From assembly GCA_963971425.1 (NCBI GenBank), contig OZ020515.1, positions 14,028,291 through 14,092,290 on the forward strand: a DNA stretch of 64,000 bases, written 5' to 3'. Position 1 is the stretch's first letter. Every line of letters begins with the position of its first letter. A program made the position numbers and the translations under genes. Origin of the DNA: Bryoerythrophyllum caledonicum (taxonomy: Eukaryota > Streptophyta > Bryopsida > Pottiales > Pottiaceae). The notes under the pieces were generated by a model, which did not search any database, was not told the origin of the DNA, and worked only from the letters and a program-made list of their open reading frames with translations. Positions 3,610-53,360 of this stretch are shown in pieces.

Positions 3610-4002
3610 GGTGCAAAGTGAACTGAGACTACATGAAACCTCACAAAGTCTGTTTGCAGAATTTCTAGATATATCACATATACAATACCCAACACAAATA
3701 GCAATCTTTTCTCACAAAACTTCTACGCTAAGTCGGCAAATAAAAACCACCATAAGGATGCTAGCACTTATGTCTATCCTATCAACCCTAGAGCTCCTCA
3801 AAATCCAAGGGTTCAAATGTCTTTCAATGAGATTCTCAATAGATTCTAGATAAAAATTGACCAATTCTAAATGCAATAATCCAAACATTTTTTATTCAAT
3901 GTATCATATCTGTACTCTATCAATAGGCACTGTGGAGTATTGTGAAGATGGAGCAAAGCATATTAGATTTATCACATGACTTGGGAGAAAGCTCAAAACT
4001 AT

Positions 4003-4437: not shown

Positions 4438-4448
4438 CTCCCACTGAT
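4438..4448 (-). other. Copia polypurine tract
   Basis: The minus strand reads ATCAGTGGGAG and abuts the 3' LTR. This is the usual plus-strand priming site of copia elements, and the AGTGGGAG core is common in Tnt1-like elements. Confidence 0.75.
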
Positions 4449-4977
4449 AGACTGATAGTGTACATTGTATCTACTCCCACTCAATCAAGTACCACTTATC
4501 CTAATCCATTACTTTCTATTCTCCCACTTGTGGTACTGTCAGTTGGACAATGTGAAGAGAATTCCAAAACGTAAGAAACTTCTCAGGCGGTAAAGCTTTT
4601 GTAAATATGTCAGCTACCTGTTGATGAGAAAGAATGAAAGAAACGTCGATGATTCCACTCTCTTGGTGTTCCCGGATACAATAGTAGCAGACGTCGATGT
4701 GCTTGGTTCTCTTGTGGTACTCCGGGTTTCTAACAAGCCTTATAGTTGCTTGATTATCACAGTATATTGGAGAGGGGCCGAGAGAAAGGAGATGAAGATC
4801 TGCAAGTAAACGCCTCAGTTACTTAGTCTCTTCACTGCCTGTAGAAGCAGAAATGTATTCAGCTTCGGTTGTTGATGTGACAACACACCTCTGCTTCCTA
4901 CTCATCCACAAGACAAAAGCGCCATTCAAAAGAATAACCAATCCACTCCGACTAAGTCAATCATCAACATCCCCAGC

Positions 4978-15361: not shown

Positions 15362-15363
15362 TA

Positions 15364-18300
15364 CATCAGGAAAATCCCAGACCCTCGCTGTCATGTAAAA
15401 AATATATAATCTTTATGTGAGAAAAACTGTATACAACTTGCATGTGATAATCATACACAATGTGTATAAAATCTAACTGCAAACGATATCATCTTGATAC
15501 CCCTCGAATTCATATCATAAATTTGCAATATGAAATTTATATGTTTTGACTTTTGATACAAATTTTATATAAAATTGATATGATTGTGATATATCTAAAA
15601 TCTTACACATATTTTATATGGAAAAAACTTTATATTGTAAATATATATTCTAAAATACGATATAGTGTACATAAAAATGTTATATCGTATTTGTGTAAGT
15701 TAAACTTGATATGATTTGCATTTAAAGTATTTCATATACAGAAACGATATAAATACTAAATAGAGTATTTTGTATACAAAAACAATATGGGAAATATATA
15801 GATTTCATATACAAGTACAATATTTACATAAGAATGGAACCATAATATGTTACAATGTATTTTGAAGCCTTCAACGTCTTTGTCCTACCAATATCATCAT
15901 TTTTTTTTATGTGTGAAAAAGAAAATTATGTGGATCATAATCAATTGTGAGTAACTAATTTTTTCCTCACCATTTTACAAATTCTCAATCAACTTTTTTA
16001 TCAGCTTTTTGACCAAATTTTACTGTCAAGAGTCCAAAACATCAAGAAAATCCTCAATGGTTAAATTGATGTAAAAACCATCTGGAGTTCATATAATCCG
16101 TATTGGCCCCTTTGATACAACTACCATACAAAGATTATGTCTTTAGTGAAAAGTATTTTTTATCTTTAGTGAATAATAACATATGAACCGAAGACAAACA
16201 TTTTCACACGTTGGCATACATTGTTAGGCAAGGTACTAAAAAAATTTCTTTTCCACATAAAGTTTCATGAGTATTAACACCAAAATGCAAAAAGTTCCAA
16301 GGTGGGCTTCTAGTGATTTTAAGTAGCTTACATGGGTGTCAATTTAGGTCATGAATCTTCAAAAAAATATCATTGATGTGTTTAAGTAATAGCTTTGTGG
16401 AAAAACAAATTCTTGAAACAAATGCACAAAACTAAAGTTATTGAGGTTCAAAGTTTGAAACGGGGAGGGCGGTCAGGGCGGGCAAGGAGGGCAAGGTATT
16501 GTAGGGCTGAATAGTACTATTGTCGAGCTTGTATGGTACCAATAGAAAGTTGAATAGTGTACTTTTTGGTGGTGGGTAGCAATAAAGGAAAGTTCTTAGC
16601 AACCTTCATCGTTTTTACTTGAAAACGCATAGAAATTAAGGTTTCATTTTTCATGAAGAAATATATTTTTTCTGTTGATGGAATTATGCATGATACTTCT
16701 ATCCACCATTCGGATTTTAAAACATTTTTCTACTTAGAGAATAAACTTACTTTCCTAAGAAAATGGCTAGTTTCTATATCTTTGCCATTGCAAGTTTCTT
16801 TCCTTATCCAAAGACCTCCATTACTTGTGATTTTTTTGTGTGCAATGACCTAACACAAGGTAGAACATATATCCAAAAAATTTATGCAATGTGTATTGGA
16901 AAAGTATGCAAATATCTTGAGTCAAAGTATGTTGACCCTGTTCAAGCCGGGAAGAAAAAACGACACTGCACTTTTCAAATGCATGTATCTTACAATTCGT
17001 ATGGTCAAAGTTTATGAAATTTTTTGAGTGTCACCTTGTAGCACTTAAATTGAGGATCCTATGGTTTAAAGTAGTAAAATTTTGTTTCAATCAGTCTTGC
17101 AATTGTGCATCTTAGAGAGGTAGTTTGATAAAGGTTTTGGTGTGAAATTGTCAAGGAATATTAGGGGTTAGTTGAGATCTTATCATAAAAATTGGAAATA
17201 AAAATATTTGTTTTCTTTCATACTCATTACACTAAATTCAGTGACTTTGAAATGTTTCTGGTGTAAAATTATGACGGTCCTTTAGGAGTTAATCCCTAAA
17301 AGCCCAATTGTACCCATAGGGTATATTTTGGATTTTGGGCAGGTACCTAAAATTCGGATAAAATCATTGTCTTATGAAAATTTTAGACTAGATTTTCCCT
17401 TGTAAGAGCTTCGTGGGGATATTTTTATAATTTTTTTGGATTCATGATTCAAAAGTTATCACCATTTAAAGGTCAATACGGGGAGTCCGGTAAGTTCGGG
17501 CAATTTGCTAAAAGTTTCTATTGACATTGAGATTTTTTGTACATATAAAGAATAATACCTCATTTTATGATTTAAAAAAAAAATCTAATCTTTAGTGTAA
17601 AAAGAGAATTTTTACTTATGTCAAACATTTTCACACATTTCGGGAAAGGGGGAAAAAAAAATATTATTTCTACATAAAACCTAAAGATTTTCAAATTTTC
17701 CACTTTTTATTTTTTTGACCACAGCATGTGGTGAAAACCTTCTTATCAATCGTTTGGATTATCATTCTAAAGTATATTGAATTCACAAAAAAATAATTCG
17801 TGAAATAGAAACTTTCCAAAAAAATTTCAACCTCCGCTTCTTGCACAAGTGTTTTGAATATGCTACACTCCTTTTCTATGCCTAAAAATTGGTGTGTAGG
17901 CAACTAACATCATATTAAACACAATTGTAAAAAATTTAGACCTTATGTAGTGCAAAAATTTGATAACAAGTGAAGTTAAAGCCTGTTGATCCACTTAATG
18001 CAGGGAAAAGAATGAGCCATTTTTTTAATTTCAAACACGATAATCTCTCAATCCGTGCGGTGGATTGTAGCCTTAAAAATATGGTGACTTTATATAGATA
18101 TTTAGTTTGAGTTCCTAAGGTTAAATGACCAAAATTTTACTTCAAAATTAAATGTTCTTGCCATTTTTTGGTAGTGGTAGGTTTGGAGTGTTTCTTGAGG
18201 AAAAATGGATTGGGTTTTTAGAGGTTAAGTAGGGAATCCTCATGTACGATTTTACACGCAAGGCCTGCAGCTGCTGATCCATGACCCGGTCGAGGAATGA

Positions 18301-18883
18301 ATCTGCGCATGATGGTGGCTGAGAAGTGTCCTAAAAACTCTCTCACACTGAACTCGAGTTCGAATCTGCTTGGGACCAGCTATCGTTGATCAGGTATCGT
18401 ATGCAGTAGGGTACTGCACACAGTGGGTTACTGTGCATGGAGCTATATGGGAGACTGAATACGGGGTACACGACTGTATACGGTGTATCGTATACCGAGG
18501 AGTATGGGATACTGTATGAAGTGGGTAACCGTATACAGATGGCTACGGTATATAGTGGTGTGGTACTGAATACGGTGGTGTCGAGATGAATACTTCTAAA
18601 TGAATTCATGATTTGCAATTTCATTGATTTTAATTGTGCCTTCAAAAATTTCATATCAGATTTCTATAAAATTATTTTCATATGGATTTGAGATATCATT
18701 TGTTTAAATCTTGTATTGAAACTTTGTGATACAAAATTTACATAATAACAATATAATTTTTTTCAAAAGATGCAAACGATATCGTTTCGACATACGGAAT
18801 ATACTAGACCCAGGAGCCCCTTGGAATGATATGATTTTCATATGCGAACGATATCATTCAAAGACCCTCGGATTTTTGTGATG
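15364..18883. mobile_element. Long TA-flanked non-autonomous inverted-repeat element, copy A
   Basis: This 3520-bp block is about 98% identical to 44198-47700 over nearly all its length, and both copies are flanked by TA. The ends are imperfect inverted repeats: CATCAGGAAAATCCCAG on the left, and on the right the reverse complement of CATCACAAAAATCCGAG. No transposase is encoded. Frames of 60-85 codons conserved between copies A and B show no family motif. TA duplication suggests mobilisation by a Tc1/mariner-type enzyme, but the termini do not match the neighbouring Tc1 element. Confidence 0.75.
18236..18600. repeat. Diverged GTATAC-rich block inside copy A
   Basis: Unlike the flanks, this segment matches its counterpart at 47078-47400 poorly, with many substitutions and indels. 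It is full of short palindromic units such as GTATAC and near-repeats of ACTGTATACGG and GAATACGGTGGT. Confidence 0.6.
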
Positions 18884-28000: not shown

Positions 28001-30430
28001 TATAAAGTTTATAATTGTATTTTTTCAAAGATGTAGTGTTCATTGGAGAAGAAACAACCAGACACATTTGAGAATCAATTCAAATCCCCAACTGCTAACA
28101 ACTTCTAAAAACTTATTTTCCGCGCTAGAAATTACATCTACTCTTTGTACAGTACTTATGACCTCTAACAATAAACAAATACTATGCTTTTAATTCTATC
28201 ACATCACTTTGAAATAAATATGAAATACACATTTTGCTTTGTAACATTATCTAATATACTAATTGCAAACTCTTACATAATATGTCAAAGGTAGTACATT
28301 GTTGCTTGAAAAAAAGATTTCATGTCAAAAGTCAGAACATAGCAGAGGTGAAAATTTATCAGATCTTATAAGTTTGCACGGATTTTAAGTAAGTGCCAAA
28401 TACAACTTAAATCATGATACTTTATTTCAAGGATAAGTGTAGTAACACTATAAATCACTTTGTAGCAAATATGGGAATATCCAAGGATAAACATAAGTGG
28501 TATGCCTTGCAGTACACCCCTATACCTCATTGCATTGCAACAAGCTATATTGTACTCCTATGTAATAATCCACAATACGGTACATTTTGGATATGAAAAT
28601 AGATTTATAGTGTTACTATACTTAATTATTGGACATGAGAATATTGGATTCTATTTTCATGTTGGATTCATGTGAAATATAAGAGCAAAATCCAACATGA
28701 AAATATTAGTTTATTTGGACATGAAAATAAATTTAACAAAAACTAATATTCTAAGTAAGATAATTTTACACTATAAGATTTATTCCTCAAGTTGTATGTT
28801 ATGTGATTTTTAAACCTATGTCTACATTTATTTATTTAGCATTTGTTAAAGCCAACAAGCTATTCCTCACTAAAAAGGTATATATGTTTATATTCATCCA
28901 TATATTCCCTTTGGAAATTAGGGAAAAAACTTTAGAATTGTTGAATCTAGTGTAAAAAGTGCAAAAAGAAAAAGAAAAACTTATTATTTCCTACATATCC
29001 ACATAATCTTAATTAAGATGACATGGTCTAAACTTTGCACAACCTTTGACTCCCAATCAAAAAGGTTACAATTTTCAATGTAGAGAAAAATGCTCATTCA
29101 TTCCGTGTGTTGAGAGGATCAACAAAGTTTGACTTCACTTGATGTCAACTTTATACACTACAAAAGGTCTACATTGTATACCATCATGTTGAACATGTTA
29201 TTTGATCACTGAACACTCGTTTTAAAATCTATAGTTCAATATGAGTATAATATAGCCAATAAGAATTCAAAATTTAGAGTGTGATACATACAACACATCT
29301 TCTAGTACATAGAATAAAGAAGTAATATTTAGTATGATCCATAAATTTCATGTGGAAAATAAGAATTACTTAAGGTACCTTGTACTCTATTTTCTAAGAA
29401 ATTTGTATTTGAATTAAAATGCTCATTTATCCTAAAAAAAATGATCTACAACACCTTGATCATTTAGAGGTTAATTTAAAATGAAATTTATAGAAATGGT
29501 GATTAATTTATATGAAAAAGAAAGATGATGTTTTTTCCAACCTAAGAAGCAAAAAAAACTATTCTGTTAGAAAATGGCTAAGGAGAGGAGATAAAGGGAG
29601 TGGGGCCACATCAAGGAGGCAGGACATGCAGTACGAGCACCTTTCTAAAGGCACCACGTAAACCTCCCTTGTGTAAGATTGGACCATGCTCAATGAACAT
29701 TTGAATTCCAATGGTACAAGTCATGTTTGCACCTGAAGAAGAAGCAGAAGAACTTTGGTCCCCGAATGAAGCCCATGTGAATAGAGTGTCTATTTCTTCC
29801 ACCACTAAATTGATACATGCCCAAAATTGCTCCTTTATACACAACTATCGTGGATCTCACAATAAATATAGATAAGCGGGGGGGGGGCGGCAACATCATC
29901 AACCCTCATTTGCTTTATTGTAAACTATCAAGATACTAATTAACCTACAAAGGACATAATGTCCATGCTCGGGACAAAGTTTCTTACTTCAACTAAAATG
30001 ATCTTCAAACGATACAATCAAAATACTTTCATGAAAGTTTAACCTCTAAAAGGTCCTATTATTTTTGGACCCAAATTCATTGATTTGCCAGTGTCAATGC
30101 AAACAAAGAAAAAAAAAATTGTTTCAAATTTAACCATGGGATCTTGTATCAAAGATTGTCAAAGTCTGTGGGTAAAAGTTTTGTTCAGTTTTAGTACACT
30201 AAGTAATAGATATTATCATATTAGCCTTTGAAGTGAGGCATAAACTCTTATTGTGGTCATATAAAACACCTTTAACAAACTTTGACTACCTACTACAACA
30301 ATTTTTCCATTACAATTTTATAGGCTATAATATTCTAATTTTAAATTAAAGGGATCATGTTTGGTACATGTACACCAAATCTTATAAACAGTAGAGGGGT
30401 AGAAAATGTCCTCAATAATCTTGCAATGCA
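28000..30430. other. AT-rich DNA without genes
   Basis: Long A/T runs and fragments of dispersed repeats. No frame with motifs, apart from a possible SINE fragment at 29735-29825. Confidence 0.45.
29735..29825 (-). repeat. Possible diverged SINE 3' region
   Basis: The minus strand has a TTC-rich tail (CTTCTGCTTCTTCTTC) preceded by a segment resembling the 5S-headed SINE at 40872-41124 (GAATAGAGTGTCTATT against GAGTAAAGTGTCTATT on the plus strand, then CATGCCCA in both). No 5S head is visible. Confidence 0.35.
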
Positions 30431-30433
30431 ACT

Positions 30434-30437
30434 ATGT
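30434..30437. other. Gypsy target-site duplication, left
   Basis: ATGT directly before the LTR terminus TGTCGTG. The same ATGT follows the other terminus at 40394-40397. Confidence 0.6.
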
Positions 30438-30902
30438 TGTCGTGTAAAGAAAGATCGATAACCACAACAGATCGAGAGTCCTAACCAACATCAAATAAAC
30501 GAAAAACATACACTAAAACAAGTATACGTAATACACCCTCAAGGAATCACATGTGTTTTCCACAAGAAGTCAAGCGACACGCACTCCACAAGGGGAGAAT
30601 CAACGAGTGCAACTAAAGTAGAGAATGTGGAGCTTTCACTAATGATAAACCATCACTTTACAAGCAAAGAACTCACTAATCACTCTCTAACCTTACTCAC
30701 AAAGCTTGACTTGACAAAGACGTCAAGTCAAGGACGTGTGCGGCGCTATACGCACACGCATACAACCCTAAGTGGATGAAAATCATCCACGGATGAAAAT
30801 GGTGCGCCGCCGTTCGTCCCTAAACACACGTAGATTAGTAACAAACTAATCTACGCTAAAATCTACGATACGGAGAAACCCTCGACGCCACGTCCCGTGA
30901 CA
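30438..30902 (-). repeat. Gypsy 3' LTR (465 bp), with four successive hairpins
   Basis: Consists of a 106-bp block (30438-30543) and a 359-bp block (30544-30902) matching the 5' end of the element. Within it lie inverted repeats in series: 30705-30715/30722-30732, 30735-30742/30751-30758, 30772-30779/30783-30790 and 30830-30839/30845-30854. All arms are perfect and loops are 3-8 nt. Confidence 0.8.
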
Positions 30903-30904
30903 GC

Positions 30905-31010
30905 TGTCGTGTAAAGAAAGATCGATAACCACAACAGATCGAGAGTCCTAACCAACATCAAATAAACGAAAAACATACACTAAAACAAGTATACGTAATA
31001 CACCCTCAAG
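30905..31010 (-). repeat. Second copy of the 106-bp LTR block, between the purine tract and the 3' LTR
   Basis: Matches 30438-30543 along its length. It lies 2 bp from the LTR terminus and directly against the purine tract, so the 3' end reads purine tract, block, GC, 359-bp segment, block. Confidence 0.85.
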
Positions 31011-31021
31011 TGCCCCCCCTC
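31011..31021 (-). other. Gypsy polypurine tract
   Basis: The minus strand reads CGAGGGGGGGCA just downstream of the integrase frame, the expected position for the plus-strand primer. It touches the extra 106-bp block rather than the TGTC terminus. Confidence 0.6.
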
Positions 31022-31325
31022 GCGGATAAAGAGACCCTCTATCCAGCTAGGACCAAACAACACTAATAAGACTAAACGCCACGGTGATGTCGCTGCAACA
31101 ACTGTACGCATCCAGCCAAAGATGTCGCCGTCATCGAATCAATAAGCATATGAAGAAGTAACAAAGAGATGGTAGGCCGGGTGCAATGTGAGTCCCATCT
31201 TTAATCGCCTTAGGCAATTTTGTTGCCAATCCCTTGGTCAATCTCCACGTTGCCTATCCCTAAACCGAAACCAGGAATTCCAACTGGATGGCAACGCACC
31301 ACACAATGACAAGTCTATGAGGAAT

Positions 31326-32660
31326 TCAAGTCGTTTCATCGGGTGAAACGTGACTCGAAGACCTCCGACAACGAGGGCAAGTCCAATCCCCGGACGGTAG
31401 AGTAGAGAGAGGCGGCGTCAAGCAAGCCATATGCCAACCACACTGGCAATGGTCACAAAGCAACATAGTAGCCGCACCCTTCTTCTCACCACACACAAAA
31501 CACGGAAGACTCTGTGGCACAATGGCCAACTCAGGATGCACGGAGCCATCAATGGGCAAATGACAGGGCGCGCAGTTTTTGGAGTGCTCACGACACTCCC
31601 GGCCATCTTTGCCTTCGAGCAACAAGATGCCACTAGGCAACACATCCTTCACACGAAGAATGGTGCGCCCAGCCTTGACGTCCAACGTCGTAGGTGCCTC
31701 ATGCTGCAAATAAACGTAATCTCCAGTGGAGAAACGCCGCAACTGAGGTCGATAAGCGCCGCTGCGAATGCGAGCGTACCGTAATGTGTCGCGGTGCTGA
31801 GCGATGGATAAATTCTCCATGGCCATTGGCATGGCCCGCTTGAAGAACTCCGCTCGATCACGCAGACACTGGATCCAGACCTCTGGATCATCCAAGTCCA
31901 CAACTGGGGCCAACTTCTCCCGTACAGAACTGAGTAGAATCGGCTCCCGTCCGTACAACAACTGATACGGACTGAAAACGGCCAAAGAGGCCTGCCGGCT
32001 AAATCGGTATCCCATGGCGATCCATGGTATCATCAGATCCCAATCACGGTGGCCACCCTGAAGTAATCCATACTTCCGTAGTCCACGCTTGACGGTCTGA
32101 ACCACACGCTCCGCCAAACCGTCCGCTTCCGGATGATCCCTAGAAGTGGTACGGTGGTCAATCAAAGCCTTGGTGCACAAAGCCTCGAAAGCACCAAGGA
32201 ACTCACGCCCTTGGTCAGTCAACACCTCAGCTGGGGCTCCAAAATGAGCGAGCACCCGGTCAAGGAATGCCATGGCCGCCAACTCCGAGGAGTTCTGTGG
32301 TAATGCCACAAACTCAATCCACTTGCTGAAGTGCTCCACCATTACCAACACGTACTTGGCTCCACGTGGGGTGACTATAAGTGGCCCGGCAAAATCCAGA
32401 GACCAACGGTAGCCCAAACCCATGATGGGCAAAGGCTGCAACTGTGGTGACAAGGTGTTGAAGCTGGATCTGACCCGATTACAGACTTCACACCGTGAAA
32501 CGTACGTGGCAACCTGCTGATACATGCCGGTCCACCAATATTGGCTGCGCAACATCGAATGACTCCGCCGCACGCCAAAATAACCAAGGTCTTCGTGTAC
32601 ATGCCGTACCAACGAAGCCCTCTGATCCGGTCTGGGAACTATGCGCCTAGTTCCATCCGG
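31326..32660 (-). pseudogene. Gypsy integrase with a C-terminal PHD finger
   Basis: The frame continues from RNase H after TGA at 32661-32663 and is open for about 440 codons. An HHCC zinc domain comes first (HVHEDLGYFG, then CEVCNRVR). The DDE core follows: D in WSLDFAGPL, D in VLTDQGREFLGAF and E in HPEADGLAERVVQTVK. The C-terminus carries a C4HC3 PHD finger at about 31362-31508: CFVC, then CDHCQCGWHMACL, then CPRC. All eight zinc ligands and the Trp before the last pair (GDWTCPRC) are present. PHD fingers commonly bind histone H3 tails; here one may guide integration, much as the chromodomain does in chromoviruses. That role is inference. Confidence 0.88.
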
Positions 32661-33434
32661 TCACAACCAAAATAGAAGGCCGTTCTCCCAACGGAACCTC
32701 GCTATCCGGTGTCCAACTCGATCGCGCTCCATGGCCGAAAGAGCGGGCGGAAGTGTGCCATGTTGCAGCTTGTGCAAGACTGGAATGTCTTCCCACACGT
32801 CACTAACAGCCTGGGCCTTGTCCGGTTCCTCATCCGCTGCCATATCAGGCAACGTCGATGTGGATCCAGACATCAATGTGAGGTAGGCTGCTGCATGCCA
32901 CCCTGGGACTGACTCCCTGTCACAGTTTCCATGCCACCTAGCACCAGTCAAATCCTCCTCCGATGGACTTGGATTGTGAGATAGACCATCCGCATCCAAG
33001 TTCGTGATGCCCGCCCGGTGTACAACCTCAAAATCATACTCCTGGAGCAACAAAGCCCACCTGGCAAGCTTACCAGTAAGCTTGTCAGACTCCATGAGCC
33101 ACTTCAAAGGCTGGTGGTCGATCACCAAAGTAAAACGTTGCCCATACAAGTAGGGCCTAAAATGAGCTATGGCCCAAACCGCGGCCAAGGCCTCCCCCTC
33201 ATAGGACGAATAGTTGGACTCCGCGTTGTTGTTGCTCCTAGAAGCAAACGCCACAACGTACTCTCGTCCCTCATCATCCTTTTGAGTCAATACGGCTCCC
33301 AATCCTATTGCACTCCAATCTGTGTGCAAGTGGAAAGGCCGTGTAGCATTTGGACGCCGCAGTACAGGCGCTGAACCGAGCTTCAGCTTCAAAGTAGCAA
33401 ACGCCTGCTCTTGCTCCCGTCCCCAAGTCCATGG
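32661..33434 (-). pseudogene. Gypsy RNase H domain
   Basis: Same frame as the reverse transcriptase, after TAG at 33435. Contains FHLHTDWSAIGLGAVLTQKD (first Asp), SSYEGEALAAVWAI (Glu) and FTLVIDHQPLKWL (Asp), the RNase H catalytic set. Followed by the linker typical of gypsy elements (LARWALLLQEYDFEVVHRAG). Degrades the RNA strand of the hybrid during reverse transcription. Ends at TGA 32661-32663 in FWL(stop)PDGTRR, a probable CGA to TGA change. Confidence 0.88.
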
Positions 33435-34469
33435 CTAATCCTTCCCTGTGAGAATAGTCAACGGCTTGGCAATTAAGCTGAAGTTCTTGACAAACCGGCG
33501 ATAGTAATTCGCAAGGCCAAGAAAAGCTCTGAGCCGTGACACGTCGATTGGGGCTGGGATCTTCTGTAGCGCGTCAACCTTCGCCTGCTGCACGCCAAGA
33601 CCTCCTGGAACAATCATATGTCCCAAATATGGCAACCGATCGTGGAAGAACTTGCATTTGCCATGGTGCAAGCGCAATCCCCACTGTCGTAACCTCTCAA
33701 ACACCGCCTGAAGATGCCTCACATACTCCTGTGGGCTGCTACTAAAAATGATAACATCATCAATATAGCATCGGGCAAACGGTAAATCGGTCAACACCCG
33801 GTCCATCACCCTCTGAAACTCAGCGGGTGCGTTCTTGAGGCCAAATGGAAGAAACTTCCAATGGTAGAGCTGATCTCTCCCATCCAGATCAACTCCCCAG
33901 AACGCGGTCTTCACCCGGTCTTCCACCATCAATAGTAACTGGTGGTAACCGGACCGCAAATCCAGAGTATTAAATACTCTGGCGTGTCCCACCGCATCAA
34001 ACAACTCCTCTGGCGTGGGCATGGGATACCGATCCGACTTGGTCTTACGATTGACCGGTCTATAATCCCCACACATCCGCTTCTCCGTCCAGTTGCCAAA
34101 GATGTCCTTCTTCGATGGCATCACCGTGGCACAAGCGTACTCGCCGTTGGAGAGCTCAATCAAACTGGCGGCCAACAACTCCTGACAACGAGTCTGAACC
34201 CCAACTTTCTCAGAAAGACTGAGCTTGTACGGTCGTTGGAAGATCGGGTGGTCATCCTCCAACTGAATGTGAATCGGTTTGCCTCTATAGCCCTCCAAAT
34301 CATGGAGACTAAAGGCAAAACAACTACGATACGAACGTATAAACGCTCGTATCCTTCGTGCCTCGGCACTAGTAAGATGTGGCCCCAAATCCAGAGGCCA
34401 ATCATCAAACTCCGTGGTCTCCTTCTCCACCGTAGAAGACTCACCGTGTACCGGCACGGCCGGTGATTG
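33435..34469 (-). pseudogene. Gypsy reverse transcriptase
   Basis: Contains the core motifs in order: KRMCGDYRPVNRKT, FNTLDLRSGYHQ, FLPFGLKNAPAEFQRVMD, CYIDDVIIFS with the two catalytic Asp residues, and YLGHMIVPGGLGV. The palm, fingers and thumb appear complete. TAG at 34470-34472 separates it from the methyltransferase and TAG at 33435-33437 (LTGKD, stop, PWTWG) from RNase H. No upstream ATG exists, which fits synthesis as part of a polyprotein. Confidence 0.92.
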
Positions 34470-35849
34470 CTACTTGGTAGCAGAGAGGGCATTAATGCCC
34501 CCAGACCCCTCTCTCATAGGATCTACAGAAAACCCCGTGTCGTGATGATAAAACTGAGAAAAGATATCTCGAGCATCCTCACGGCCAAAGTCCTCTACCA
34601 AGGCTGCAAAGACACGCTGAGCACGAAGCTCCTCAGCTGCATGCCTCTTCAAACGGAAAAGCAACTCCGCTTCCTCGATCTCTGTGAGATGTGGCACCGC
34701 TGCCCCCTGACCATCAGAGTCTGCCCCTTGCACACGTGGATGGTTACTTGAACGGCGTTGAGCGGCGAAACAGAGGCCACATATCCAAACAAGGGTGTTG
34801 AGGTCAATGGCTTGACCCAACAAATAACGGCGTTGGCCCTCAGAGATATCCGGTGCGGCGGTGGTGCCTGTCAAAAAGCCCATCGCCCGCTCCCTCTCAT
34901 CGGCAGAAGGCTCCTCGAAAGTTTGGGAAGAAGAATCCCAAACCATGCCCGGACCGCGTGTCCTGAAGGCAAAAGAGCCTGGATAGCACATCAAAGTGGG
35001 AAATGCCCTCCAAGTGAAACTAACGCGGTTGACCACCGCCAATGGTGGCTCATCATCCTTCGTAACCTCCGTGGAAACACGGTGGTCGTCTAAAATGTCA
35101 TCGACCTCACGGCGCACGGGCCGTTGCACTTGAGTAAGTGCAGAAGTGAGCGTCGTGGATGATGCCATGTTGGTCCAAATCCAACGTGGCCGATGGGCGT
35201 AAGATCCCAACGCCGCGGCATCAACAAACGTAGGGGGACCAAGAAGGTGATGGATGTACGCCCCATCCTCACGCACTTTCGTCCGTGTATCTCCCAATGG
35301 GGGTACATTCTCAAAAATGTACCCCGGTGGTGTCGATTGGTGGGTAATCCACCACTGGACGAGCCTGAGCAAATCCGCAAAGAGACCCGACCGTGGATCA
35401 TCCAAGCCACGTCCACTTTCCGCCCGTGAGTGGCCTTGGCAAGGCCATCCGGCAATCACCAAGTCCACGTGACCTAACCGGCGAAGATCATCCTCACTGA
35501 TCAACGTCACATCACGTGGCAACTTGCCAAAACACCCTCGAATCGCAGAAGATGGTAACTGCTTTAGATATAACGCCAGAAGACGCTGAATGTGATGGTG
35601 AGCGGCACGGTTGGCTGCAAAGCCACTATCCACATGGATATACCGTCGTACCTTGAGCCCGGCCTCCAACACAACCGCGAGCCCCGTACCGATACCGGCA
35701 AATAACTCCACAAGGGTAATACCCTCATCCGGTGGTCGCCACTGAATAGTACGAGCCAACAACGGAGTGGAAGAGTCCACTGAAGGCAGTGGAGCATCAA
35801 GAGCATCCACGATCTCTCCACTACGACAAGTGAGCTCCAACGGTGTCCC
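34470..35849 (-). pseudogene. Cytosine-5 DNA methyltransferase domain inside the gypsy polyprotein
   Basis: 456 uninterrupted codons between TAG at 35850 and TAG at 34470. Motif I, which binds S-adenosylmethionine, is LVELFAGIGTGLAVVLEAG (residues about 43-61). Motif IV is DLVIAGWPCQGHSRAESG, with catalytic Cys at about 134. Motif VI is YIFENVPPLGD (Glu about 177). Motif VIII is AHRPRWIWTNM. Motif IX-like is WRAFPTLMCYPGSFAFR, and motif X is RRYLLGQAIDLNTL. The ERERAMGFLTG segment before motif X recalls DNMT3/DRM-type enzymes. The order is non-permuted (I before IX and X), unlike plant DRM2. No ATG opens the frame, which argues for a polyprotein domain. Expected activity is methylation of C5 in DNA; specificity cannot be read. 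Published precedents, as I recall, exist in Klebsormidium and dinoflagellate retrotransposons. Confidence 0.9.
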
Positions 35850-36092
35850 CTACGGCGGAAGCGGATCCTTGCAATGACGGGCAGGGATCGCCAATGGTGG
35901 GTGTTCGTGTGAATCTTCCACCACAGACATAAATGCATATGTCTCCTCCAAAAGTGAAGAAGCACACGGCAAGTCTGATGCCAGAGCACTGCACTCAAAC
36001 ATAGCGTCTGTCGTTGAAGTCACCGCGCTAGCTGCGAAGACTACGGGCATGAGCTCCTTCCTGCCATCACCGGCAGACCACCCTCGCCTAAT
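35850..36092 (-). pseudogene. Protease-methyltransferase linker of the gypsy polyprotein
   Basis: Same frame as its neighbours, between TAG 36093-36095 and TAG 35850-35852. Reads RRGWSAGDGRKELMPVVFAA, then an Asp/Glu/Ser/Pro/His-containing stretch without a recognised domain. It probably held a processing site. Confidence 0.6.
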
Positions 36093-38509
36093 CTAGGCCT
36101 CCTCCGTCCAGTTATCCACCCCAAATCCAAGTGGATATAGTGCCTGCTGGCCCACCAAAATATCGTAGTTGGTGGCGCCAGTAAGAGCGCACTGAAGGGA
36201 GACATGGGAGAACAATGGACCAGATCCCACGCCAAACATCAACTGCAACGGATGTCGGGTGTAGCCCATGGTCTTCTCCGTGCCCCAACCGATGTAACAA
36301 TCGTGAATGGACAAGGCTCGAGGTCCAAAGCACCTAGACCCAAATCCTGGGCTAGCTGCTTGCCAATCATCACTCGCTGAGCCCCGGAATCCAACATAAC
36401 ACGTAGGGGGGTAGCTCGAGTGGAGTTGCCATCCGTACGGCCTACCACCATGACTCCATCGTCATTCACCAAACGTACCACCCCTGGACGTACACTGCGT
36501 CGCTCCCGTGCCGACCGGGCTGCAACGTCAGACAAATAAGCCACTCCAGAGATCAAGGCCCGATCCCCGGACGACTGCTCCATAGGTGTGGAAGTGGCAT
36601 TGGCCTCGAACGCGGAAATAGCCTCCGCCGCCAACTTGGCCTGCATTGCCACCAAATCCTCCTCAGTGGGTGGAGCGGTCACTGCCTGTGACACCTCCAA
36701 CGACGGAATGGGCACTTTGCCTTCCAACATACTACCCGCCAAGTGGAATACACCGGATGGTTGAAAATCTAGTGTGGAAAAGTCCACACCAGCAAACACC
36801 GGCAATTGCAACACCTTATACGCCAAGGTGTGTATAACATCTCCAAGACTGGAAGAAACCGGTGGGACCGGAATCAAAGTGGGAGCGGCAGCAGAAGTAG
36901 CCGCATCCGCGATGCTGAACGAAAGAGGTAGCCGGGACTGTCCAATGTGGTCCGGCAAACCCGCATGGCGTGAACGACCGCTACTACCCGGCATAGTGGA
37001 AGAGGGTGCCACCGCGTGTGTAATGGTCTGAGCACGAGTGGCAACCGCTGCCACCACCTCCCCCGAAGCGCCATACAAGTAGCGATCTAAGGCTGAAGAT
37101 GAGCCCTGACCCGTCACCACAGGCCGTGTGTCTGCCACTTGCCCCAAAGAAGCCATTGCGCTCATCTGCTTCTTCAGCTCCGCCAATTCGGATTGAAGTG
37201 ACTTCACGGCATCCGATCCAACAGCCGAAGATCCTGGGCACTTCTCCGGGTGAAGAGAAAAGCAGTTCTCATCACTGTGGCCAGGCTTGCCACAGTGAGA
37301 GCATGTCACAGGCTTCTTCCCCTCGCCCCCAGTCTTCTCCGTAAGCTTGGCCGCCTCGGTCTTGGGCTTGGCCTTCCTCGCCACTGCTTCCTTCTTCTTC
37401 GGACAATTGGGGTCCCTCTTGGTGTGACCGGCCTCTCCACAAGCCCAACAATGCACAACCTTTTCAGGTTGTGCTTCTGCCAAGCTACTAGTCGCCGTAG
37501 CAAGCTTCTTGGGCTTCGGAGCATCCATGAGCGACGTGACCAAGTCTGTGGCCTCACTCACACCCAACGCCCGGTCAAGCGCTTCCACCTCGGCGAACGC
37601 CTGAGCCAAGGTCGCATTGCCGTGGTACCGGAAGAGCAAATGCGGACCGATCAACTCTACCATCCGCTTGTCGAGCTTGGAGATAAAAATCTTCACAAGT
37701 TGGCGCTCCGTGAAGACATTACCAGCCTCCGCCGCCAACCGCGCCAACCGTGTGTACATGGTGCGTGGCGTGTCTTCCTTCTCACGACGGAAGTCCTGAA
37801 TGCGGTGCATCTGATCGCGCCGAAATCCCCCGTACTCCACCTCCAGATGCGCCATGAGATGCGCCAGAGGATCGAAGGCTGGCGGGTTGCCAACCGCCAC
37901 CAATGCCGCACGTGTGGCTACGGCCAAACGAGACATGGCCCTCATGCCAGCTCGTTCGCCCACAATGGCAACACCCTTGCCCTTGGAGTCCTCACCGAGG
38001 AAACTTTCCTCCTCATTGGGCTCCTCGGTGGAAGTCGAGAGTTGGGCAACCGCACTCTCCTTGAGTGCAGTGACCAACTCCACACATTGGCGCCAATACT
38101 CCTCAACCGGGCGCAACTCTGCCTCGTGCTGCGTGGTCCACCTCCCATATGTCTGAAGTGCCTCCAGCTCCAAATGCTGGGGCAAAAGCTCGAACGCGTA
38201 CCAATCGTTGAACGACGGCGTCCGCTGGAGCTTCTCCTTCATCCAAGTTTGGAATCGGAGACGCCAATCGGGTAGGGAGATGCCCCCAGCCCGTCCCGAG
38301 AACCTGTCTCGCACGACATGACGGTGATCGTCCTCCATGTCGTCAAACGTGCCCACACTCCAGACCCGAAGCCTACGGTCGGTATCCAACGCCGAAACAG
38401 GCTCAAAAGCCTCGTCGGTATCCGACCCTGGCCCAAAGTCTGTGGTGGAAGCACTCTCCGAGTGGTTTGGTGAGGGAGAGCGGTAATACCGACTCCGGGT
38501 ACTCACCAT
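36093..38509 (-). pseudogene. Gypsy gag and aspartic protease
   Basis: The start is the ATG at 38509 (MVSTRSRYYRS). Gag contains the capsid-like segment YWRQCVELV...FRREKEDTPRTMYTRLARLA, then two zinc knuckles: CWACGEAGHTKRDPNC (six residues before the last Cys) and a standard CSHCGKPGHSDENC. The protease has LRVMLDSGAQRVMIGKQLAQ with the catalytic Asp in DSGA. Near 36283-36286 a run of four C on the plus strand marks a frameshift. Upstream coding is in one frame and the protease end (GPLFSHV, NYDILVGQQALYP, NWTEEA) is in the pol frame, as if one base of a G run was lost. Gag packages the RNA; protease cuts the polyprotein. Confidence 0.85.
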
Positions 38510-40034
38510 AAACAAAAACCACCTTGGGATCTATCTACGAGTACTATCTAAAGGGTAAGGGTACGAACGGGCAACCTGCACCTGCAAAATCACCAAGCTG
38601 TGTGGATCATCGGTCATCACCTCCGGCTACCACAGGTCCAACCACATCCCCCCACATAGAAAGGTCTTGCTGGCCATAAATCCGACTTCACCCCTACGGT
38701 ATCCTATCACAAACTGAAACAACAAGAAATGGGGCCACCGGAAAACACCGGCAACAAGTCCGCAACACAAAGGAGGTACCGCACAAGAATCCAGAAATCA
38801 AAATTGGATCTTCACCCCCAACAACATAAAAGCAGGAAAATGAAAGGGGCAGTGCCACTGGCACACGCCTGCAGTGGATGCCTCAAAGTCGCAAAACCTG
38901 CAAATCAAAGAGAAATACTAAAAGTGTTCTCCCCTAACGTCTAAAACTAAGGGAGTAGTGGGGATTGACCGTGGTGTTTAAAAACACTATCCATCCAATG
39001 AAATCACATACATTGGTGGATAATCACGACAAATGCCAAACTAATGCTAAAATTAGGTCAAATGGTGAAAACCCTAACTATAAGCATAAATGTCACTCAC
39101 ATCCGAGTAACAATGCCTTTGAAATCTACTCCCAAAGTTTAGCACTATTTTTTTTTTTTAAAAAAGATCACAAAACATGTGATTGTTTTCGTGACGTCCA
39201 AAAATTAGCCAAATATTTTATTTTTTTGTAAACTAGAAAATTTTCACATCACTAGTCTTACAATTTCTTCACGAATCTAAATCCGTTGTCGGAATCGCAA
39301 AATATTGAAAATTGCAAAATCTAAAATTCTAACATCCAACTCCAGGGACTTCTGAAGTTTTGGACTCAAATTAACGGAATAGGGGTCCGCGGCACGCAAT
39401 TGAGTACCTGCTGGAATTTGGAGCCTGGCGCAATTGAGCTCCCCCACGCCTGGGATGAAACCCGTCCCTCAATGAAGACTCGCTCGCAGCCACGTGTGGG
39501 CTTCGTCTCTCGCTCATCAAGTGGCCAGCCTCGAAACTCCACAGAATCGAGAAGTCAACTCTCGCTTCCTTCACGGCAGCCCTCGCGGCAGTCCTTTTGA
39601 GGCCTGATCATTTTTCGGGCAAAGCTCAATTATCAGCTCCCACGTCCCCCGAATCCTCGCCCACAGACTCTCACAGTCTATCCACTCACGGGCGATCTTG
39701 TTTGGAGCCCTTCACCGTGCTTCAGTCAAATGTGCGTCCTAGATCCCGTCGCCGTGGATGAAACCCTGTTGGAGATGAACTCCCTACTGGATGAGAAACC
39801 GAGGTTTCACCAACCCTCGCATACGACCTTCTCCACAGAACATCTCCAGCACATGAGCTCCTTCACTCTTCACTCAAGACATAGCTCAAATGGCGAATAG
39901 AACACACAAAATTTGTGCACAAACTAACGTGATATTAGTAATCCACTCTTTCTACTTATTCCTTTCTACTACAAACTCTTCGAATGCAAAAATGGAAAGA
40001 AACTATGGAAAATAAGAGGGGGTCTTTGTCAAGT
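38510..40034 (-). other. Gypsy leader between the 5' LTR segment and gag
   Basis: About 1.5 kb without a credible gene. I find no clear primer-binding site next to the LTR segment edge (minus strand ACTTGACAAAGACC). Such a long leader is unusual and may include a replaced or inserted piece. Confidence 0.4.
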
Positions 40035-40393
40035 GAATCACATGTGTTTTCCACAAGAAGTCAAGCGACACGCACTCCACAAGGGGAGAATCAACGAGTG
40101 CAACTAAAGTAGAGAATGCGGAGCTTTCACTAATGATAATCCATCACTTTACAAGCAAAGAACTCACTAATCACTCTCTAACCTTACTCACAAAGCTTGA
40201 CTTGACAAAGACGTCAAGTCAAGGACGTGTGCGGCACTATATGCACACGCATACAACCCTAAGTGGATGAAAATCATCCACGGATGAAAATGGTGTGCCG
40301 CCGTTCGTCCCTAAACACACGTAGATTAGTAACAAACTAATCTACGCTAAAATCTACGATACGGAGAGACCCTCGACGCCACGTCTCGTGACA
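40035..40393 (-). repeat. Gypsy 5' LTR segment (359 bp)
   Basis: Same length as 30544-30902, with seven substitutions. Six are transitions and about four fall at CpG. The 106-bp block that ends the 3' LTR is missing here. Confidence 0.85.
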
Positions 40394-40397
40394 ATGT
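40394..40397. other. Gypsy target-site duplication, right
   Basis: ATGT directly after the terminus GTGACA, matching 30434-30437. Confidence 0.6.
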
Positions 40398-40871
40398 GCT
40401 GATAATTAACAATACAATAATAAGTTTTCCATACATCATATGCATTTCATATTTTTGAAATTCAAAATTTATACAATAGATGCAAAGATTATTATTTCCT
40501 TCCAAATAGAGGTTTTTTTTTGGTAATATGGACAAAAACTTGAATTTATATTATATATAGAATTAATTAAACTTTTGCTACACTATTTGTATATGTCAAA
40601 CTAAGCCACTATATTGTTTGGATATGTTACTCAAATATGTTTGTAACTTTTGAATCAAAATGCGGATTTCCATAAAAAAATTATGTAAGTAGTAAGCTAT
40701 AAGAAAGATGCCCATTGAATAATAAATCTAAAAAAAAATCATGTCTAAGTTTGAGATTGAGGGACTCACTTGAACCTCAAAGAGGACTTTGGTTCTTTAG
40801 AGGTTAAAAGAAGATCCTACAAGTACATTCTTAAAACGATTATCACAACAATTTGAAATTGTTGGATTACA

Positions 40872-44165: not shown

Positions 44166-44197
44166 TATCTACCAATAGAGAATACCGGTGGTGCCTA

Positions 44198-47100
44198 CAT
44201 CAGGAAAATCCCAGACCCTCGCTGTCATGTAAAAAATATATATTCTTTATATGAGAAAAACTGTATACAACTTGCATGTGATAATCATACACAACGTGTA
44301 TAAAATCTAACTGCAAACAATATCATCTTGATGCCCCTCGAATTCATATCATAAATTTGCAATATGAAATTTATATGTTTTGACTTTTGATACAAATTTT
44401 ATATAAAATTGATATGATTGTGATATATCTAAAATCTTACACATATTTTATATGGAAAAAACTTTATATTGTAAATATATATTCTAAAATACGATATAGT
44501 GTACATAAAAATGTTATATAGTATTTGTATAAGTTAAACTTGATATGATTTGCATTTAAAGTATTTCATATACAGAAACGATAAAATTACTAAATAGAGT
44601 ATTTTGTATACAAAAACAATATGGGAAATATATAGATTTCATATACAAGTACAATATTTACATAAGAATGGAACCATAATATGTTACAATGTATTTTGAA
44701 GCCTTCAACGTCTTTGTCCTACCAATAACATCATTTTTTTTTATGTGTGAGAAAGAAAATTATGTGGATCATAATCAATTGTGAGTAACTAATTTTTTCC
44801 TCACCATTTTACAAATTCTCAATCAACTTTTTTATCAGCTTTTTGACCAAATTTTACTGTCAAGAGTCCAAAACATCAAGAAAATCCTCAATGGTTAAAT
44901 TGATGTAAAAACCATCTGGAGTTCATATAATCCGTATTGGCCCCTTTGATACAACTACCATACAAAGATTATGTCTTTAGTGAAAAGTATTTTTATCTTT
45001 AGTGAATAATAACATATGAAACGAAGACAAACATTTTCACACGTTGGCATACATTGTTAGGCAAGGTACCAAAAAAATTTCTTTCCCACATAAAGTTTCA
45101 TGAGTATTAACCCCAAAATGCAAAAAGTTCCAAGGTGGGCTTCTAGTGATTTTAAGTAGCTTACATGGGTGTCAATTTAGGTCATGAATCTTCAAAAAAA
45201 ATATCATTGATGTGTTTAAGTAATAGCTTTGTGGAAAAACAAATTCTTGAAACAAATGCACAAAACTAAAGTTATTGAGGTTCAAAGTTTGAAACGGGGA
45301 GGGCGGTCAGGGCGGGCAAGGAGGGCAAGGTATTGTAGGGTTGAATAGTACTACTGTCGAGCTTGTATGGTACAAATAGAAAGCTGAATAGTGTACTTTT
45401 TGGTGGTGGGTAGCAATGAAGGAAAGTTCTTAGCAACCTTGATTGTTTTTACTTGAAAACGCATAGAAATTAAGGTTTCATTTTTCATGAAGAAATGTTT
45501 TTTTTCTGTTGATGGAATTATGCATGATACTTCTATCCACCATTCGGATTTTAAAACATTTTTCTACTTAGAGAATAAACTTACTTTCCTAAGAAAATGG
45601 CTAGTTTCTATATCTTTGCCATTGCAAGTTTCTTTCCTTATCCAAAGACCTCCATTACTTGTGATTTTTTTGTGTACAATGACCTAACACAAGGTAGAAC
45701 ATATATCCATAAATTTTATGCAATGTCTATTGGAAAAGTATGAAAATATCTTGAGTCAAAGTATGTTGACCCTGTTCAAGCCGGGAAGAAAAAACGACAC
45801 TGCACTTTTCAAATGCATGTATCTTACAATTCGTATGGTCAAAGTTTATGAATTTTTTTGAGTGTCACCTTGTAGCACTTAAATTGAGGATCCTATGGTT
45901 GAAAGTAGTAAAATTTTGTTTCAATCAGTCTTGCAATTGTACATCTTAGAGAGGTAGTTTGATAAAGGTTTTGGTGTGAAATTGTCAAGGAATTTTAGGG
46001 GTTAGTTGAGATCTTATCATAAAAAATTGGAAATAAAAATATTTGTTTTCTTTCATACTCATTACACTAAATTCAGTGACTTTGAAATGTTTCTGGTGTA
46101 AAATTATGACGGTCCTTTAGGAGTTAACCCCTAAAAGCCCAATTGTACCCATAGGGTATATTTTGGATTTTGGGCAGGTACCTAAAATTCGGATAAAATC
46201 ATTGTCTTTTGAAAATTTTAGACTAGATTGTCCCTTGTAAGAGCTTCGTGGGGATATTTTTATAATTTTTTTTGGATTCATGATTCAAAAGTTATCACCA
46301 TTTAAAGGTCAATACGGGGAGTCCGGTAAGTTCGGGCAATTTGCTAAACGTTTCTACTGACATTGAGATTTTTTGTACATATAAAGAATAATACCTTATT
46401 TTATGATTTAAAAAAAAAATCTAGTCTTTAGTGTAAAAAGAGCATTTTTACTTATGTCAAACATTTTCACACATTTCATGAAAGGGGGAAAAAAAAATAT
46501 TATTTCTACATAAAACCTAAAGATTTTCAAATTTTCCACTTTTTATTTTTTTGACCACAGCATGTGGTGAAAACCTTCTTATCAATCGTTTGGATTATCA
46601 TTCTAAAGTATATTGAGTTCACAAAAAAATAATTCGTGAAATAGAAACTTTCCAAAAAAATTTCAACCTCTGCTTCTTGCACAAGTGTTTTGAATATGCT
46701 ACACTCCTTTTCTATGCCTAAAAATTGGTGTGTAGGCAACTAACATCATATTAAACACAATTGTAAAAAATTTAGACCTTGTGTAGTGCAAAAATTTGAT
46801 AACAAGTGAAGTTAAAGCCTGTTGATCCACTTAATGCAGGGAAAAGAATGAGCCATTTTTTAAATTTCAAACACGATAATCTCTCAATCCGTGCGGTGGA
46901 TTATAGCCTTAAAAATATGGTGACTTTATATAGATATTTAGTTTGAGTTCCTAAGGTTAAATGACCAAAATTTTACTTCAAAATTAAATGTTCTTGCCAT
47001 TTTTTGGTAGTGGTAGGTTTGGAGTGTTTCTTGAGGAAAAATGGATTGGGTTTTTAGAGGTTAAGTAGGGAATCCTCGTGATCAGTTTCATGCGCAAGGC

Positions 47101-47700
47101 CTGCAGCTGCTGATCCATGTCCCGGTTGAGGGTGGAATCTGCGCATGCATTGTTGTGATGGTGGCCGAGAAGTGTCCTGGAAACTGTCACACAGTGGACT
47201 CGAGTTCGAACCTGCATGGGACCAACTATGGTCGGGTATCGTAGGCAATAGGGATACTGAATACGGTGGTACAGGACGGTATACGGTATACCATGTACAG
47301 AGGAGTACATGATACTGTATGTAGTGTGTTACCGTATACAGATGGCTACGGTAAACAGTGGTGTGGTATTGAATACGGTGGTGTCGAGTGGAATACTTCT
47401 ATTTCATTTCATTTGTTGTAACCTATGTTTTGCAATTTCATTGATTTTAATTGTGCCTTCAAAAATTTCATATCAGATTTCTATAAAATTATTTTCATAT
47501 GGATTTGAGATATCATTTGTTTAAATCTTGTATTGAAACTTTGTGATACAAATTTTACATAATAACGATATAATTTTTTTCAAAAGATGCCAACGATATC
47601 GTTTCGACATACGGAATATACTAGACCCAGGAGCCCCTTGGAATGATATGATTTTCATATGCGAACGATATCATTCAAAGACCCTCGGATTTTTGTGATG
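44198..47700. mobile_element. Long TA-flanked non-autonomous element, copy B
   Basis: Partner of 15364-18883, about 98% identical outside the GTATAC-rich block. TA at 44196-44197 and 47701-47702. Starts CATCAGGAAAATCCCAG and ends CGGATTTTTGTGATG. Outside both TAs the sequences of the two loci are unrelated, which fixes the boundaries. Confidence 0.78.
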
Positions 47701-50043: not shown

Positions 50044-51417
50044 ATGGATGGTAAGAGAGAAAAGATTCTACTTGCTCTTGCAATTCTTATGGTTTTCAAG
50101 CATGTTATTGTTTCAACTATGGCGGTTCAAAAATTCATTATACATAAACACAATGCATCAATTATGACGATGGCATTTTTTATATTTGGGAGCAAGGAGT
50201 CTTAGAAAGTATGGGCATTCGATCGGCCAGGTGGATTTGTTTCACAATTTCTTCTTGGATCTTATAGTGCAAAAATGTTCAAGAATCATATCCGGGTGAA
50301 TAAACCTACATTTTTATACTTGTGCAATTTGCTTTCACCCATTTTAAGCAAGAAAGATACACGTTGGAGACATTGCATTCCAATTGAAGATAGAATTTCT
50401 TTAACTTTGCATTGATTGGTTATGGTGATGTTTTGCAAACACTTGCCGATTTATATGGAATGTCAACACCAAGTGCTTCAAACATTGTTAGAGAAACTTG
50501 TGAAGGAATTAGAATTCTTTTAAAACCATTGGTTTTCCAAAGACCTACTTTGCCTCGAATGAAGCAAATTTGTGCAGAGTTTGAAAGTTTGCATGGAATT
50601 CCTTATATTCTTGGAGCAGTAGTTGGTAGTCACATTCTGATTATTGCTCCTGTAGATCCGGCTTCCTATTATTGTAGAAATGGATTTTACTCGGTATTAT
50701 TGCAAGGTGTTGTGGATTATCAGTGCAAGTTTTGGGATCATGACTTCGGTTGGGCTCGAAGTATACTTGATTGGACTTTATTCCAAAAATGAGGTATTGG
50801 AAAAAAAACTATATCGGGAGCATTTTTACCTTATAAATTAATTGGAGATGTTGCATATCCAAATTCCAATGCGTCCATGGTTCTATTCACCTTTCAAGGG
50901 AGAAAACGCAAGTTTATCAAGAGAGAAGGCACATTGGAATTTTATTCAGTCTAGTACTAGAATGGCTGTTGAGTGTGCTTTTGGCATTTTAAAGGGGAGA
51001 TGGAGGATATTATTAAAGAGGATTGATATGCCACTTAGAAATATTCCTGATATTGTTATAGCTTGCTTGTGTCTTCACAATTTAATATGCATTATCCATG
51101 GAGAAGAATTTGATTTGGATTGGACAAAGACTATAGAAGGAGATATGAAAAAGGCTAGAACAGTGGCATTTGGTGTAGTGAACAATGGAGATATGTTCCA
51201 TGCACTTCAAGCCAGCATACTTAAAATGAGGAGCATCCAAGAAGAAGTAGTGCAAGTAGAATTCAATGATCCTGTGGAGAATGACACAACTAACTTTGAA
51301 GACATGGATATTAAAGATGAAACGAGACAACATCGTGAAGACATGATCAAAGCCATGTTACAGGAAGCTACTCGAACTCACAATCTTGGCCAAGAACTAT
51401 TAGATGGACCATCTTGA
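50044..51417 (+). pseudogene. PIF/Harbinger (HARBI1-like) transposase, inactivated
   Basis: Coding pieces follow each other on the plus strand: 50044-50205 (MDGKREKILLALAILMVFKH, stop TAG), 50206-50411 (FLLGSYSAKMFKNHIRVNKP, KDTRWRHCIPIEDRISLTLH), 50412-50792 (TLADLYGMSTPSASNIVRET, LGAVVGSHILIIAPVDPASY, YSVLLQGVVDY) and 50842-51417 (MAVECAFGILKGRWRILLKR). These are the HARBI1 HTH and DDE nuclease. The first catalytic Asp of GAxDGxHI is replaced by Val, the second Asp (VVDY) and the Glu (VECAFG) remain. In-frame stops and a frameshift near 50411 also break it. It ends 57 bp from the convergent Myb-like gene. Confidence 0.85.
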
Positions 51418-52801: not shown

Positions 52802-53360
52802 TTATAGACACTCATGGAAGAGGAAGCCAACAAAGCTTTTGCCTTCGTAAAGTCTCCGTGATATAAAAATTTGACGTGATTGTTTTCCAACCTCAAATGA
52901 TGGCTCATCTGTCCAAATCACATTGCCCCAATCATCAACCGTTTGAAACAAATGTTGTTTTGCAAAGGCCAACCTCTTGGCCTTGTGTATGCCACTCAGA
53001 AACGGCTTCTTCACTGCAATGCAACTATTAACACGAAACTTATGAATCTCTTTCCATAAAGTCACCATGCCTACATGAGGTGCAACATTCTTATAAAATT
53101 TTACAAGAGGAGCACAACGGTTGCTACTAATATCTATCATGAGCCTTTTCCTACCCTTATCACTCAATTTAAATGGCCCACTGGGCTTCTTTGTTGGCTT
53201 GTTAGAGCCACATTCATTGTATCTCTTCAAAATCCTTGAAATTGTTGATTTGGGACCTGGGTCTTCCTACAATGTTTCCTATTTTGCTCAATGTCAAGCC
53301 AACTATTCTCATACTAACTATCATATTTTGAACATCATCTGGTACAACACTTCTTGCCAT
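52802..53360 (-). pseudogene. Tc1-type transposase, N-terminal half, frameshifted
   Basis: From the ATG at 53360 the minus strand encodes the same helix-turn-helix as 3461-3609, but a 7-bp insertion (AGGTCCC after GGAAGACCC) shifts the frame. The following frame, 53230-52802, reads KRYNECGSNKPTKKPSGPFK, RLAFAKQHLFQTVDDWGNVI and WTDEPSFEVGKQSRQIFISR, which includes the first catalytic Asp. The second Asp and the Glu are missing. It is a different subfamily from the element at 13.3-15.4 kb. Confidence 0.75.

Follow-up and report, generated by a model that had tools for sequence, protein, structure and literature searches.

A DNMT3-type cytosine methyltransferase carried by a multicopy gypsy element family in the moss Bryoerythrophyllum caledonicum

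Why should a retrotransposon carry a cytosine-5 DNA methyltransferase (MTase), and what might it gain from one? The question is raised by a frame at 34470..35849, on the minus strand of a 64,000-nucleotide stretch of Bryoerythrophyllum caledonicum contig OZ020515.1 (hereafter the window), which a first-pass annotation had read as an MTase embedded in a gypsy polyprotein between protease (PR) and reverse transcriptase (RT). Both enzyme type and position are confirmed, the former by motifs, by a match to Pfam DNA_methylase (C-5 cytosine-specific; E=1e-10) and by the closest PDB structures, which are DNMT3A/B (E=2.9e-8). The explanation that we favor, with somewhat more belief than doubt, is that the locus is one copy, now decayed, of a gypsy family that is multicopy and recently mobile and in which a DNMT3-type MTase forms the last domain of the Gag-protease protein; a particle-level enzyme, stop-codon readthrough, methylation of complementary DNA (cDNA) and targeting by a PHD finger are proposed as its further parts.

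The methyltransferase frame and the conserved stop

The stop-to-stop open reading frame (ORF) encodes 459 aa; its 459 codons (34473..35849), and not 456 as annotated, contain the DNMT3-type region, with the fold at approximately residues 40-365 (35732-34755). The frame is uninterrupted and has no Met 5' of motif I, as had been noted. The motifs LFAGIGTG, GWPCQGHS, FENVPP, HRPRWIW, DERERAMGF, and LLGQAIDLN are all present, and their sequence along the frame (I, IV, VI, VIII, X) is unrearranged. DRM methyltransferases have a rearranged motif order, unlike the window MTase, whose motif order, nearest profile and nearest fold are those of DNMT3. The DNMT2 profile matches at just 7e-5, and an NCBIfam search adds a single dcm match under its cut-off.

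Repeat comparison and flanks delimit a whole gypsy-type element on the minus strand (30438..40393), with the ends TGTCAC...ACGACA in its own orientation. Gag with a zinc knuckle and the protease start occupy 36239..38530 (minus; ORFs and Pfam), although the upstream zinc knuckle and the weak aspartic-protease match both fall under the Pfam cut-off. Past the MTase on the same strand lie RT (33612..34088; RVT_1, 4.7e-29), RNase H (33036..33425; RT_RNaseH, 7.7e-38), the integrase zinc-binding region and DDE core (32130..32630; Integrase_H2C2, 2.1e-15, and rve, 7.9e-14), and, 3' of the integrase, a PHD finger (31368..31502; PHD, 3e-9). By Pfam, these domains are spread over three open frames after that of the MTase. 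The element thus has the Ty3/gypsy domain order PR-RT-RNase H-integrase with a DDE integrase, and the MTase is inserted between PR and RT.

The term polyprotein needs qualification. The MTase does share a frame with RT, RNase H, and integrase, but it is followed by an in-frame TAG (34470..34472, minus) and then by CAATCA; copy comparison makes this TAG a candidate readthrough stop that separates ORF1 from ORF2. A stop at this point occurs in all 20 copies read, the window copy included (TAG in 19, TAA in one), with CAATCA directly 3' of it in 20/20, and L049, a diverged relative, has both TAG-CAATCA and the same two-ORF layout. Because the stop is conserved, MTase and RT lie in two ORFs despite their common frame: by its sequence, the MTase closes a Gag-PR-MTase ORF1 rather than lying inside Pol. 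In agreement, ORF1-type proteins end 85 to 151 residues past the MTase in 16/16 cases checked (15 from other genomes and one from Marchantia). UAG-CARYYA is a readthrough context, and production of RT-RNase H-integrase-PHD would require the stop to be read through. In both relatives, the 126-nt segment spanning the stop folds more favorably than every one of 200 shuffled versions (z -3.79 and -4.83). In a folding scan of the window element, the minimum among 178 blocks falls directly after the stop; in L049, this place holds four of the 12 lowest-ranking among 163 blocks, the overall minimum being elsewhere. The first 40 codons of ORF2 show 1 to 3 synonymous differences per 35-36 comparable codons in four copies, with one other block equally low.

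Copies, decay, and terminal repeats

The whole genome assembly containing the window (437,360,962 bases, 894 contigs) was subjected to a protein search, and at least 92 MTase copies were scored across many of its contigs; this is a lower bound, since 92 of 2510 first-look candidates were scored. Sister copies with the same domain order exist, and the chance single insertion that could have undone the annotation is not borne out. Chance insertion or misassembly was rejected on copy number, repeat structure, and target duplications. The matched MTase part is free of stops in 53 of the 92 copies, some matches being partial, and at least two of eight copies read on both sides have ORF1 and ORF2 open. 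Domain order and catalytic motifs are conserved within the family: motif IV is intact in 21/21 sequences. The ratio of nonsynonymous to synonymous change (dN/dS) in the MTase core is ~0.09 in four copies compared with a diverged relative, which demonstrates purifying selection at the sequence level. Paired terminal repeats (L, below) differ at 1, 4, 1, 1, 4, 3, 0, and 7 of 345 positions in eight pairs (the 7 belonging to the window copy), and given this low divergence some insertions must be recent. The 21 differences comprise 10 transitions at CG sites, seven transitions elsewhere, and four transversions, a share of CG transitions that fits methylated copies, whoever set the mark.

The copy in the window is dead. 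Its Gag-protease frame is broken, shifted relative to the MTase frame with two stops in between, and its ORF2 has two further stops that are absent from copies with an open ORF2; one of the two also occurs in L046. Its MTase carries 12 residues that are private in comparison with 20 other sequences.

The annotation had placed the MTase inside long terminal repeats (LTRs) with ATGT duplications. The target-site duplications stand, being exact matches on the low (30434..30437) and high (40394..40397) sides, whereas the terminal repeats prove to be split. In the element's own orientation the order is L, coding region, B, GC, L, B, on the minus strand: a 5' L at 40035..40393 with no adjoining B, a polypurine tract (31013..31021) two bases ahead of an inner B (30905..31010), the dinucleotide GC (30903-30904), a 3' L (30544..30902), and an outer B (30438..30543). 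An identical complete LTR at both ends, a Ty3/gypsy trait, is therefore not found, while the TG...CA ends and short target duplications of that group are. The arrangement is general in the family. L occurs in 17 of 20 fetched 5' pieces, always alone and never with B; in the 3' pieces, B followed by L is found in 8/8, the outer B being full in seven and partial in L042. The palindromic junction reads GACA-GC-TGTC in 7/8 and GACA-AC-TGTC in 1/8. The window copy and six of seven fetched pairs show exact 4-bp target duplications; the seventh pair is off by one base. DIRS elements have a tyrosine recombinase and make no target duplication; the DDE integrase and 4-bp duplications found here differ on both counts.

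Directly after the 5' L lies a putative primer site (40022..40034, minus) whose 13 nt are the exact complement of a stretch starting at position 181 of L (40200-40212). In 15 of 17 fetched copies complementarity to L reaches at least 13 nt, the other two having 12 and 10, and in L049 one base pair of it is changed on both sides with pairing kept. Tf1-type and sushi elements self-prime, the 5' part of their RNA annealing to a site after the 5' repeat. The complementarity in the window element resembles this, and the element may prime itself in a similar way; it is set apart from them by the split repeats, the MTase, and the PHD finger. An Rfam search of 30300-40500 gave no matches up to E 0.1, and no transfer RNA genes were found within the 64-kb window. 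Ordinary reverse transcription from the primer site and polypurine tract would make a linear product ending in B-GC-L on either side, of which the integrated form would be a circular permutation, with an L|B junction resembling joined ends. One idea that would explain the junction is a two-LTR circle cut at the GACA-GC-TGTC palindrome. Against this model, the second permuted insertion form that it predicts was not seen in the 17 five-prime and eight three-prime pieces. The 127-bp overlap between the ends of L049 was also considered as self-closure of a circular intermediate, but it was not accepted, as collapsed repeats in an assembly look the same.

Elsewhere, the window holds direct repeats of 2.6 kb with 98% identity and copia-type RT pieces (RVT_2; 3461-6054 and 53205-55804) and two of 3 kb with 97% identity (15362-18426 and 44196-47269). 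Two transposase pieces are present, one Tc1/mariner-like (13499-14272, minus; DDE_3 and HTH_Tnp_Tc3_2) and one matching DDE_Tnp_4 (50842-51417, plus), as is a peroxidase gene piece (57784-58548, minus; Pfam E 1.7e-61) that is probably a host gene.

Relatives and known systems

Relatives came from more than one protein search; one of these turned up 307 proteins, 120 of them listed. Across the searches, named matches come from Calypogeia fissa, Marchantia polymorpha, Closterium, Sphagnum troendelagicum, and Haematococcus lacustris, with a Chromochloris match named by its record tag; most other matches are without a name, and no Klebsormidium-named protein is among those listed. In a set of 228 proteins, including one translated copy from the same genome and two bacterial entries, profiles located the MTase either after PR or before RT (type I, 49) or between RNase H and integrase or directly before the integrase (type II, 121), with 58 undecided. 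P0104, with its MTase between RNase H and integrase, is an example of type II. By a simple pattern, motif IV reads PCQ in 42 of the 49 type I proteins.

Into the MTase tree (76 rows) went every type I protein matched over 270 residues or more (32), 36 of the 118 type II proteins matched to that extent, seven undecided proteins, and the window. Type II falls on one side of a branch (support 94), and the window lies inside a starred set of 34 rows together with Marchantia and Calypogeia. An RT tree (30 rows; six type I, 24 type II) gives the same split with a support of 99. In a further tree, made from a chosen subset of 37 rows that included two bacterial rows and one human DNMT3A fragment, the retroelement MTases group together (92/90), with type II within a grade of type I; the single DNMT3A row sits on a long branch meeting the bacterial rows. 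This topology hints at a single capture of the MTase by retroelements. Monophyly of type I is not rejected (p-AU 0.066).

The PHD finger is likewise shared. The annotation had regarded its combination with this domain order as undescribed; the finger after the integrase is real, but the pairing is not peculiar to this element, as a PHD finger follows the integrase in 111/112 of the type II proteins that leave room for one and in 1/2 of type I. Its closest solved relatives include PHF12, CHD4, KDM5B, KDM5A, UHRF1, PHF21A, and ATXR5. Several of these bind histone H3 unmethylated at K4, a preference shared by the ADD domain of DNMT3, and the element may bear a pair of reader (PHD) and writer (MTase).

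Retrotransposon-borne methyltransferases have precedents. As the annotation had stated in outline, they are known from Klebsormidium and dinoflagellates: de Mendoza et al. (2018; PMC5890265) describe Dnmt3 in a Klebsormidium gypsy element, besides DNMTs in DIRS and LINE elements of dinoflagellates; PMC12344493 also mentions streptophytes and dinoflagellates. The closest known system is KnitGypsy-Dnmt3 of Klebsormidium nitens, which, compared by description only, has in common with the window family a Dnmt3-type domain, gypsy domains, DIRS-like repeats, and purifying selection (Ka/Ks < 0.2 for its DNMT; PMC5890265). Its DNMT is described in the Pol ORF, whereas in the window family the MTase ends ORF1 before the conserved stop, and the word PHD is absent from the main text of PMC5890265. 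SymbioDIRS-Dnmt3 and SymbioLINE-Dnmt of Symbiodinium, described in the same paper, likewise carry a cytosine DNMT within a retrotransposon, but these are DIRS (tyrosine recombinase) or LINE elements, unlike the window element with its DDE integrase and 4-bp duplications. Cellular plant enzymes such as Physcomitrella PpDNMT3b, as described in PMC6453930, share the DNMT3-type catalytic domain and unrearranged motifs; the window MTase differs in being element-borne and intronless. A literature search judged by title and abstract, with most subscription papers outside it, found no report of such an element in a bryophyte. As far as that search reaches, the land-plant hosts, the placement in ORF1 with its gene layout, the PHD partner, and the breadth of relatives are new.

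Possible roles of the enzyme

Under the explanation favored here, ORF1 (Gag-PR-MTase) would be the main product, and therefore the MTase would be present in virus-like particles at the level of Gag, while a minority of ribosomes would pass the stop and add RT-RNase H-integrase-PHD. The MTase would act de novo on newly made cDNA, methylating it either inside the particle or during integration, and the PHD finger would guide the integrase to chromatin with unmethylated H3K4. A copy methylated in advance would enter silent chromatin quietly, limiting damage to the host and maybe avoiding treatment as foreign DNA, at the cost of its own transcription. We infer catalysis, readthrough, and cDNA methylation from sequence. 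Self-methylation of new copies, which the annotation had also suggested, is plausible and was proposed for related elements in PMC5890265. In that paper the SymbioDIRS enzymes are reported to methylate CG in yeast.

Several observations weigh against this explanation. KnitGypsy-Dnmt3 gave no methylation in yeast, a result called inconclusive by its authors (PMC5890265). RT, RNase H, and integrase are under tighter constraint (0.01-0.04) than the MTase, and motifs I and VIII are each variant in 4/21 sequences. Among type II relatives, motif IV reads ECQ in 50/121 vs PCQ in 48/121, and MTase activity may be lost or altered in those with ECQ. Neither the scarcity of synonymous change nor the low folding energy is confined to the stop region, and covariation in the RNA after the stop is nil, with 37/37 predicted pairs kept in a comparison of two rows only.

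The looser constraint relative to Pol, the private substitutions of the window copy, and the many type II relatives deviating from PCQ would suit a domain that is merely carried along, with no catalytic use, and is retained by hitch-hiking or for a structural role. We consider this improbable in view of the low dN/dS of the core and the retention of motif IV, both among the copies and in type I proteins. Placement in ORF1 would yield much MTase, and the enzyme could instead act in trans, on DNA of the host or of competitors, for example as a decoy or by disturbing the silencing machinery; de Mendoza et al. (PMC5890265) discuss unwanted methylation of the Symbiodinium genome by such enzymes. 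However, its linkage to Gag and protease probably keeps the MTase with the particle, and nothing points to a trans target, which makes this role quite unlikely too. The vicinity of Gag would also agree with a domain that methylates or binds element RNA, thereby aiding packaging or reverse transcription, and RNA methylation has been raised for the Symbiodinium LINE enzyme (PMC5890265); with profile and fold closest to DNMT3 and so slight a match to DNMT2, such a role seems decidedly unlikely.

Bacterial contamination or an assembly artefact is almost certainly not the explanation, in spite of bacterial labels on some database matches. P0005, filed as a Candidatus Obscuribacterales DNA cytosine methyltransferase, matches the element MTase at 72%, and L049 (1-9285), a gypsy element with 90% MTase identity, lies on a contig filed as uncultured Synechococcales cyanobacterium AVDCRST_MAG81; both are probably plant DNA in bacterial metagenome-assembled genomes (MAGs). 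A scan of bacterial and archaeal contigs gave 29 pattern matches, of which L049 alone encodes a relative, and a scan of viral contigs with one degenerate pattern gave three pattern matches and no relatives. Bacterial origin was ruled out, the sole relative on a bacterial contig being this gypsy element in a MAG contig. The contamination outcome foreseen by the annotation was looked for and not found: copies lie on many contigs with target duplications, and the named relatives are bryophytes and algae.

A broader scenario, tentative and on balance unlikely, has a single ancient DNMT3 capture founding a gypsy lineage across green plants, from chlorophytes to bryophytes, with a portable writer (DNMT3) and reader (an H3K4-type PHD finger). 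The MTase would later have moved, and the bryophyte branch would combine a capsid-level enzyme, a readthrough switch, self-priming, a circle cut at GACA-GC-TGTC, and DNA methylated before landing.

Compared by descriptions only, the breadth of relatives suggests an acquisition older than the K. nitens lineage, to which PMC5890265 dates it. According to PMC6338049, transposons bearing a methylase are absent from land plants such as tracheophytes, a statement to which bryophytes would be an exception. The usual view of cytosine methylation is that of a host weapon against transposons; the same mark may also be a tool of the parasite itself. With a land-plant family that has recent copies and retains a DNMT3-type enzyme under selection, the question why a transposon would methylate itself becomes testable in bryophytes, for which the relatives in Marchantia polymorpha offer a ready model.
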